DNA of 59,136 nt from Chloroflexota bacterium (GTDB lineage: Bacteria; Chloroflexota; Dehalococcoidia; Lucifugimonadales; Lucifugimonadaceae), in the NCBI GenBank assembly GCA_018673955.1, contig JABHBJ010000081.1, forward strand, positions 1-59,136. The letters run 5' to 3'. The notes below the pieces were generated by a model. That model saw only the letters and a list, made by a program, of their open reading frames with translations. It was not told the DNA's origin and ran no database searches. The position numbers and the translations under genes were made by a program. Position 1 is the first letter of the stretch; each line of letters starts with the position of its first letter. This document shows positions 1,562 to 56,544 of the stretch, one piece after another.

Positions 1562-2269
1562 TTGACCTCAAGACAAGAACGACGACAAAATAATAATCCC
1601 CCCAAGAACACAGGCCACAAAAACTGGATGATGATGGGTGGAGTTACAGTTGTAGCTACCGCCATCGCGATCATCGCGTTCGTTGCTCTCTCACCAGAGG
1701 ACACGACCACCCTAGAGCACACTGATGATGCTGTACTGGCGTCGAGCGGCTCGCTTATTGGGGATCCTAACGCACCGGTAACCCTTGTCGAATTCGGGGA
1801 CTTTCAGTGAGTGCACTGTGCAAATTTTGCCCTCGGGACAGGGCAACAGATTATTCGTGAGTACGTAGATACCGGTCGTGTAAATATTCTCTACAGACAC
1901 TTTCCCTTCATCGGCGACGAATCGTGGAGGGCCGCTGAAGCATCGGAATGCGCTGGTGAGCAAGATCGTTTCAAGGTCTATCAGGAAACCGTTTTTGTAA
2001 ACTGGAACGATGCAAACAAAGGTAACTACTCGGACGCCAATCTTCGTACTTTTGGCGAAATGACTGGTCTGTTAATGAATCAGTTTGACGAGTGTATGGA
2101 CACCAACAAGTATCTTCCAAAAGTCGAATCTGATCGACAGGCCGCCCTCGACGCAGGGGTGAAATCCACACCCACATTCTTCTTGAACGGTGAAAATATC
2201 ACCGGACCCGACGATTACGGCTACTACCGAGTCAAGATCGAAGAGGCTCTAGCCAAATTAGGTGGATAG
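1562..2269 (+). CDS. Selenocysteine-containing DsbA-like thiol:disulfide oxidoreductase (UxxC), membrane anchored
   Basis: Read through an in-frame TGA at 1808-1810, this is a 235-residue protein. It starts at TTG with a basic N-terminus, has one membrane helix at about residues 23-44, then an extracytoplasmic thioredoxin-fold domain of the DsbA type. The strand leading to the active site reads VTLVEFGDFQ, then U83-V-H-C86, then ANFA, exactly where relatives have DFQCPxC. The cis-proline loop KSTPTFFLNG is at about 201-210 (Pro204). The frame stays open and homologous on both sides of the TGA, and a SECIS-like hairpin follows at 1827-1846. Downstream VKOR starts 3 bases after the stop, so the pair should form and recycle disulfide bonds outside the membrane. 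A nonsense mutation in a DsbA gene is the alternative; the Sec reading is favoured by the hairpin and by selD in this window. Confidence 0.82.
1808..1810 (+). other. TGA codon read as selenocysteine (DsbA-like protein, residue 83)
   Basis: The TGA lies in the same frame as the upstream 82 codons and the downstream 152 codons and replaces the first active-site cysteine codon of the CxxC motif. The second cysteine (TGT at 1817-1819) is retained. A single base separates TGA from TGT or TGC, which is the usual Cys/Sec exchange. Confidence 0.8.
1811..1846 (+). promoter_or_regulatory. Bacterial SECIS-like hairpin for the DsbA-like gene
   Basis: TTGCCCT (1827-1833) pairs perfectly with AGGGCAA (1840-1846) around the loop CGGGAC (1834-1839). 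The loop begins 24 bases after the TGA and has G at its second position. Known bacterial SECIS elements place an apical loop roughly 16-37 bases after the UGA with a G in the first two loop bases, for binding by SelB. The outer six pairs are identical to the hairpin after the selD TGA. Confidence 0.72.
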
Positions 2270-2272
2270 ACG

Positions 2273-2782
2273 TTGGTTAGCGGTTCAAATTCTTCGGATT
2301 CAGAGAGCGAATCGGCTGCAGTTTTAGGCCGACCTTCAAAGCTGTGGCTGTTCATTGCGCTACTCGGAATCGCCGGACTCGCAGTGACGACTTACCTTAC
2401 TTCGAACGCGCTCTCGCACACAGAAGTCGGATGCAGCATAAGCGGCTGCAACACAGTGCTAGGCAGCAAGTGGTCGAAGATTTTCGGCATCCCTGTATCA
2501 GCGTTTGGAATGGCAACCTACGCCATCATCATGCTCGGTGCGCTCCATGCATATCAATCTCCAATCGACGATCTGAAGAGGCGACGTGTTGTTGCCTTGA
2601 CGACTGCAATCGGCGTACTAGCGTCGATCTACTTAACTGCTATCGAATTCTTCGTAATCAAAGCCGCCTGCCAGTACTGCATCACTTCCGCGGTGCTGGT
2701 TGCGGTCGTAGCAGGAGCGTTGATAGTCGCTGCACGAAAAGAAGGCCCACTGTGGTCAGAGATCCGAATGCGTTCCGATTAA
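2273..2782 (+). CDS. Vitamin K epoxide reductase (VKOR) family membrane protein
   Basis: A 169-residue membrane protein with about four helices. The VKOR signature is complete: a loop cysteine pair C54 and C59 (GCSISGC), the following segment with conserved serine and glycine (IFGIPVSAFG), and the quinone-side active site C133-Q-Y-C136. In bacteria lacking DsbB, VKOR reoxidises the DsbA-like partner and passes electrons to quinone. The TTG start has a good ribosome site (AGGTGG, about 8 bases upstream) that lies in the end of the Sec-DsbA gene, so the two are co-transcribed and probably translationally coupled. The N-terminal 20 residues are serine/acid rich and cytoplasmic. Its natural partner is therefore most likely the adjacent UxxC protein. 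Confidence 0.9.
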   Translation: MVSGSNSSDSESESAAVLGRPSKLWLFIALLGIAGLAVTTYLTSNALSHTEVGCSISGCNTVLGSKWSKIFGIPVSAFGMATYAIIMLGALHAYQSPIDDLKRRRVVALTTAIGVLASIYLTAIEFFVIKAACQYCITSAVLVAVVAGALIVAARKEGPLWSEIRMRSD

Positions 2783-3363
2783 CCCGCGTCATCCGGCAAG
2801 AAGTTGTCGATCAGCGACGCACAGCGAATCATTGCTTGCTCGGAGTCGAGACCGTCGCAAAGAATCACCATGTTGCCTACGATCGCCCAATCCTGATACG
2901 TCGGACCCGGTGCCTGGCGTGAGCCACCGCTCGAAACATCAGTAACGCCACGAGCCTGCCAACGATCCTTCACGCCCTCAGTCCAAACCTGCTCATCACG
3001 TTTGGCCTCGAACTCCGCACCAGTGGCGTCGATAGCTAGCTGCTTACCGCTCGAAACTGCCAATGTATGCGATGCGTAGAAGCGAATCTCATAGTCGTGG
3101 CGGTCGTACGGATCCAAACCCCAGAAACCCTTCCAAGCATCTAGTCCATCAGGCAGACCTTCAACATCATAGTTCTTTGAAGCTTTAAGCCCAATCGCTT
3201 TGAGGTCTTCGATAGTGTAATCAGCTGGAGCATCACGAACCTGCACAAAACTATCAACGTCATCCACTGCGTTACCGCCACAGGCCGTCAAAATGGCAAC
3301 CAATAACACGACAGAGCTCATCAAAACGCCGTATCTCGCAATTCGTAGATTACGACCCACCAT
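2779..3363 (-). CDS. Putative lipoprotein of unknown function
   Basis: I choose the ATG at 3361-3363, because a longer frame up to 3504 would overlap the sulfatase gene. The product is then about 194 residues with a basic start, a hydrophobic segment and a lipobox ending LTAC (cysteine near residue 27), so it should be lipid-anchored and exported. The mature part is mixed alpha/beta, with two cysteines near the C-terminus, and matches no family I recognise. It overlaps the end of the convergent VKOR gene by 4 bases and lies downstream of the sulfatase on the same strand, 83 bases away, possibly in one transcript. Confidence 0.65.
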   Translation of the reverse strand: MVGRNLRIARYGVLMSSVVLLVAILTACGGNAVDDVDSFVQVRDAPADYTIEDLKAIGLKASKNYDVEGLPDGLDAWKGFWGLDPYDRHDYEIRFYASHTLAVSSGKQLAIDATGAEFEAKRDEQVWTEGVKDRWQARGVTDVSSGGSRQAPGPTYQDWAIVGNMVILCDGLDSEQAMIRCASLIDNFLPDDAG

Positions 3364-6686: not shown

Positions 6687-6689
6687 TCA

Positions 6690-55488: not shown

Positions 55489-56544
55489 ATGACTGAAAAG
55501 CCTGTACGACTAACCGAACTGGCAAGCTGCGCCGGTTGAGCTGGAAAGCTCAGCGCGAGTGAACTTGCCCAGGTTTTGGGCAAGCTGCCAACCCCCACCA
55601 TCACCGATTCAAACGTGCTGGTCGGAACCGAAACCGGAGATGACGCTGCCATCTACCGGATAGACGATCGCGTCGCTCTCGTACTCACAAACGACTTCTT
55701 TGCGCCTATCGTCGATGACCCGTTCGACTACGGCCAAATCGCTGCAGCAAATGCTCTTAGTGACATCTACGCAGTTGGCGGAACTCCGATCACAGCGTTG
55801 AACATAGCGGCGTTCCCTCGCAATCTAGGCCCTGACGTAATCGCCAAAATTCTCGAAGGCGGACAGGCGAAAGCTGAAGAAGCCGGGATTTTGATTATTG
55901 GAGGTCACACCGTCGACGATAAAGAGCCTAAATACGGACTCGCGGCAGTCGGTATTGTCACACCGGGCGAGCAGATCACGAACGCAAACGCTCAGCCGGG
56001 CGATGTACTGATTCTTACCAAAGCAATTGGATCTGGATTTATAACGACCGCTGGCAAGTTTGGGACTGCGCCTGATAATGCGATTGCCGCCGCTGTGAAG
56101 TCGATGGCGACCTTAAACAAGGGTGCTGCCGTTGCGATGCAAGAAGTCGGCGTAAACGCTGCTACTGACGTGACCGGATTCGGGCTGCTGGGTCACTTGG
56201 CTCAAATGATGAAGGCAAGTGGCACTTCGGCAACTTTGAATTGGTCGGCAATTCCGTTCCTGCCGGGTGCAATTGATCTCGCACACGCCGGATCGACCTC
56301 AGGCGGAACCCGCCGAAACATGGAAGCTCTCGAAGGCAGAGTTCTCTATGGCGAGGGAATTTCTGAGTTCGAATTCATGGTTTTAGCCGATGCCCAAACA
56401 TCAGGCGGCATGCTAATTTCAGTTCCAGAAGAACGAGCCAACGCACTTGTAAAGAGTTTAGTTGCTAATGAAACACTTTACAGTGAGGTAGTCGGACGAG
56501 TCGGCAACGATGGGCAGCTGGGCACAGTAACGATCGAAAAGTAG
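55489..56544 (+). CDS. selD: Selenide, water dikinase (selenophosphate synthetase), selenocysteine-containing
   Basis: Read through the in-frame TGA at 55537-55539, this is 351 residues (E. coli SelD is about 347). The ATG at 55489 has AGGA upstream. The N-terminus is MTEKPVRLTELASCAG, then U17-A-G-K20, matching the catalytic Cys17/Lys20 position of SelD. Then follow the glycine-rich ATP and Mg residues in VGTETGDDAAIYR and NDFFAPIVDDPFDYG, AANALSDIYAVGGTP and, later, GFGLLGHLAQMM. Its role is making selenophosphate for tRNA-Sec charging. A SECIS-like hairpin follows the TGA. The preceding lysA diverges. Confidence 0.93.
55537..55539 (+). other. TGA codon read as selenocysteine (SelD residue 17)
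   Basis: The codon lies in frame between ASCAG and AGKLSASEL; in E. coli SelD the equivalent residue is Cys17. Sec at this place is well known in SelD proteins from many organisms, which supports the reading. A second cysteine (Cys14, SCAG) lies three residues before. Confidence 0.9.
55540..55584 (+). promoter_or_regulatory. Bacterial SECIS-like hairpin for selD
   Basis: CTTGCCC (55564-55570) pairs with GGGCAAG (55578-55584), seven perfect pairs around the loop AGGTTTT (55571-55577). The loop begins 32 bases after the TGA and carries GGU, matching the known bacterial SECIS pattern of a G near the loop start and a following U. Its inner six pairs TTGCCC/GGGCAA are the same as in the DsbA hairpin. 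Confidence 0.8.

Follow-up and report, generated by a model that had tools for sequence, protein, structure and literature searches.

A selenide, water dikinase (SelD) that itself contains selenocysteine (Sec) is a well-known arrangement, as the original prediction recognized. In a reference set of prokaryotes Sec is encoded in 19% of SelD genes, its position always being the same (PMC4561486), and SelD is among the most abundant of ocean selenoproteins (PMC2398784). The Escherichia coli enzyme has Cys instead of Sec, and this Cys17 has been described as the selenide-binding site, with a Ser mutant being catalytically inactive (PMC3956282). The Sec-containing bacterial proteins (SelD/SPS2) have several features in common with the one considered here: the family match itself, Sec at the only SelD position where it occurs, a bacterial SECIS within the coding sequence, and co-occurrence with selA, selB and selC (PMC4561486). 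The only specialist detail of the present case is its CxxU active site motif, which has been reported in ~5.6% of the single-domain Sec-SelDs of an ocean metagenome survey (PMC2398784). It is common for selenoprotein genes to be misannotated, the predicted proteins being cut short at the N- or the C-terminus (PMC1088965, PMC13188914). Open-access searches on SAR202 bacteria in connection with selenocysteine or selenium gave few papers, whose abstracts do not treat SAR202 selenoproteins.

The gene is in a 59,136-nucleotide stretch of DNA (the whole of which is here termed the window) from the assembly of an ocean SAR202-type Chloroflexota bacterium, a fragmented one of 2.2 Mb in 103 contigs that is 87% complete. 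Judged from sequence comparison, it almost certainly encodes a SelD that is itself a selenoprotein. A single plus-strand frame runs from its ATG to TAG at 56542-56544 (Table 1) with TGA at codon 17 being the sole interruption, and with this TGA read as Sec the product has 351 amino acids. It gives a full-length match to the TIGR00476 equivalog model (residues 7-316 of 351; 369 bits, the model's cut-off being 125; E 1.4e-110), has both AIRS and AIRS_C domains, and is alignable from residue 1 (residues 1-326, E 2.7e-72) with structure 3u0o, which we take to be the E. coli SelD enzyme. In E. coli numbering Sec17 falls on Cys17, a position which on comparison with Sec- and Cys-type SelDs is only ever one or the other, and Lys20, presumably essential in SelD, is conserved. 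Reading through the TGA does, then, restore a SelD N-terminus with both Sec17 and Lys20, as had been predicted. A search of plasmid records gave only relatives of <60% identity.

With ordinary start and stop rules alone, the open reading frame would be 55576..56544, yielding 322 amino acids from a TTG, with the next in-frame start being GTG at 55615. From either of these starts both Sec17 and Lys20 are lost, which bears out, for such rules, the earlier claim that an internal start at around 55576 would cost the protein its catalytic site. Some annotation pipelines do recognise known selenoproteins.

Table 1. Coordinates, within the window, of the features discussed
Feature	Positions	Strand	Description and basis
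selD, selenide, water dikinase	55489..56544	+	351 aa with predicted Sec17, ATG to TAG
In-frame TGA, predicted Sec17	55537..55539	+	aligns to Cys17 in E. coli SelD; TGA in 78/79 mappable relatives, TGT in one
AAG, Lys20 of segment CAGUAGK	55546..55548	+	translation; aligns to Lys20 in E. coli SelD and to the motif Lys of relatives
Putative bacterial SECIS hairpin	55564..55584	+	7 bp plus A-U closing pair, loop GGUUU; MFE and covariation
TTG, false internal start	55576..55578	+	inside SECIS hairpin; first in-frame start after TGA
DsbA/Thioredoxin_4-type protein, predicted Sec codon TGA	1808..1810	+	motif FGDFQ-U-VHC; ORF to 2269

Is the TGA a codon, a stop or an accident? A GTDB genome scan yielded 80 SelD loci, and at the 79 where the position is mappable, a set biased to relatives of the Sec-type query, codon 17 is TGA in 78 and TGT (Cys) in one, a Rhodobacteraceae assembly. 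The 15 closest, at 73-95% identity, come from SAR202/Dehalococcoidia assemblies, and the close relatives with the TGA include the complete Candidatus Lucifugimonas marina genome (86% identity). All 15 have TGA at the same codon and conserve the protein on both sides of it, which argues that its occurrence there is not due to chance. Across 76 genomes of the organism's family exactly one TGA is present in each of the 55 SelD genes that reach the N-terminus; two family pieces without it (in G038 and G074) begin past codon 17 at a contig edge. Only one base separates TGA from TGT or TGC, and a sequencing error or a Cys codon recently mutated in a pseudogene might come to mind, but this is refuted by the recurrence of the same TGA in dozens of independently assembled genomes, the complete one of Ca. 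Lucifugimonas marina included, and we regard its probability as negligible. That the TGA is a true stop, with the functional protein starting at the TTG and being a truncated SelD-like kinase devoid of the catalytic segment, draws on the frame from 55576 being open and containing the AIRS domains. It is nevertheless highly improbable, being refuted by the conservation, as protein, of residues 1-16 and 18-29 across the TGA in all relatives; further, the ATG at codon 1 is conserved in the close clade, the TTG falls inside a covarying hairpin, and Sec machinery is present in the genome.

The hairpin just alluded to (CUUGCCC-AGGUUUU-GGGCAAG) has 8 bp, a 5-nt loop that begins 32 nt past the UGA, and an MFE of -13.1 kcal/mol. 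In the model for bacterial SECIS elements given in PMC13188914, the loop is of 3-9 nt and the stem of 4-16 bp, with a G within the first two loop nucleotides, a distance of 16-37 nt from the UGA and an MFE of at most -7.5 kcal/mol. The selD hairpin lies within all of these bounds, and it is a putative SECIS element for SelB. Its folding energy is only mildly unusual (z -1.5), with 68 of 2000 synonymous recodings folding as stably, although no more than 8 of 2000 have a perfect 7-bp helix. Folding energy alone being a weak argument, the case for the hairpin is built on covariation. Across 43 distinct Chloroflexota SelD sequences, 89.8% of cells in the helix are paired as against 76.5% in shuffles, double-changed cells number 39 as against 13.1, and the helix covariation score is 0.372 as against 0.160, with 0/500 shuffles attaining it and slid pairings giving 0.02-0.15. 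RNAalifold, unprompted, recovers the inner part of the helix. The interval of the original prediction ended at 55584, which is the 3' end of this hairpin, the hairpin itself being absent from its text. Another hairpin, predicted in the window directly at the UGA (UGAGCU/AGCUCA), is absent in other clades and so is not the conserved SECIS, which is ~25 nt further on. A search of the window at Rfam gathering thresholds gave no match.

Could the UGA specify some other amino acid, due to codon reassignment or near-cognate readthrough? Apart from the in-frame TGA itself nothing favors this; a reassigned UGA would interrupt many genes, and when the 51 ORFs of the window were scanned for in-frame TGA readthrough there was no convincing case besides SelD and a DsbA-like gene. 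(A candidate at 6687 on the minus strand was rejected, having no Pfam match and an unconvincing upstream frame.) With the UGA also aligning with Cys/Sec sites and being followed by the SECIS element, decoding as another amino acid is extremely improbable, and decoding as Sec is the reading we favor.

A check for selA, selB and selC elsewhere in the genome had been proposed, and all three are there: selA on contig C53 (516 bits), selB on C46 (its two pieces together giving 346 bits) and, on C11, tRNA-Sec with anticodon TCA (66 bits). Neither of the outcomes named as refuting the prediction, a lack of Sec insertion genes or a close SelD relative with a sense codon other than Cys/Sec, was seen. 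These genes, together with conserved flanks of the TGA and substitution of the latter by Cys codons only, are what is expected of a bacterial selenoprotein. A 53.7-bit tRNA-Sec match on C53 was rejected as it is tRNA-Ser by ARAGORN. Close to the tRNA-Sec gene on C11 is a sequence for the C-terminal portion of a formate-dehydrogenase-alpha-like molybdopterin oxidoreductase (2186-3088 of locus L001). Selenouridine synthase (TIGR03167) was not found in the 87% complete source genome, so the evident role of SelD is in the Sec pathway.

By analogy with the known family, a ribosome meeting the UGA at codon 17 would be supplied with Sec-tRNA(Sec) by SelB positioned on the mRNA hairpin, Sec would be inserted and translation would go on to the TAG at 56542. 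Sec17 and Lys20 would then belong to the active-site segment at the N-terminus, where selenide is taken up; from this and ATP the enzyme would generate selenophosphate for use by SelA in making Sec-tRNA. Since SelA makes Sec-tRNA from selenophosphate, SelD would be dependent on its own product.

Within the 76 family genomes, SelD with the TGA and SelB are both present in 50 and both absent in 16, with discordance in 5 + 5; for SelD with the TGA and tRNA-Sec the corresponding figures are 44, 19 and 11 + 2. Fisher's p is ~2e-8 for these co-occurrences, a value that ignores relatedness and assembly gaps. The 11 genomes having SelD with the TGA and no strong tRNA-Sec match are mostly incomplete assemblies. 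Three genomes of one genus (G023, G024 and G025 of g6) have SelD with the TGA, and two of the three have SelB over cut-off; none has tRNA-Sec at cut-off, the best scanned candidates being tRNA-Ser or tRNA-Leu, and either a divergent tRNA-Sec or missing contigs is possible. Two other genera of the family (g4 and g5, assemblies of 0.7-1.5 Mb) are without a true SelD, SelB over cut-off or a strong tRNA-Sec match, which suggests loss of the Sec trait.

The second Cys of E. coli SelD is at position 19 (GCGCK) whereas that of the protein encoded in the window is at 14, giving Cys14-Ala-Gly-Sec17, and this CxxU motif is near-universal in SelDs of this Chloroflexota family. The pairing of Cys14 with Sec17 is evident from the predicted protein. 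It is speculation, and we consider it unlikely, that a reversible selenenylsulfide forms between the two, by which selenophosphate synthesis would become redox-switchable or could draw selenium from a carrier in aerobic seawater.

The value of finding a Sec-containing SelD is mainly for annotation: as the organism in all probability decodes Sec, TGA-interrupted genes such as the DsbA-like one are to be read through instead of being called broken. For the latter the match to Thioredoxin_4 (PF13462, E 8.6e-30) extends across its one internal TGA, and this TGA is kept in all 14 genomes of the genus that have the gene. It also matches NF041057, the Rcas_1661 family thioredoxin-like (seleno)lipoprotein, with a score of 135 where the cut-off is 190, the start of the protein having been trimmed in the query. 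On the conservation of the TGA and this below-cut-off family match, the suggestion that SelD lends support to a Sec-containing DsbA holds. UxxC DsbA-like selenoproteins, to which the gene in the window may be likened, feature in PMC13188914. At one locus of the same genus (L154 of G049, minus strand, ~1910-1925) the DsbA-like gene contains two TGAs in frame, with U-P-V-U in place of UxxC; being in one genome only, this is possibly an assembly error. UxxU is given for a few other families in the passages of PMC13188914 consulted, where none was seen for DsbA. Downstream of the TGA of the DsbA-like gene in the 14 genomes of the genus there is a similar, conserved hairpin-forming stretch (TTTTGCCCTCGGG..AGGGCAA).
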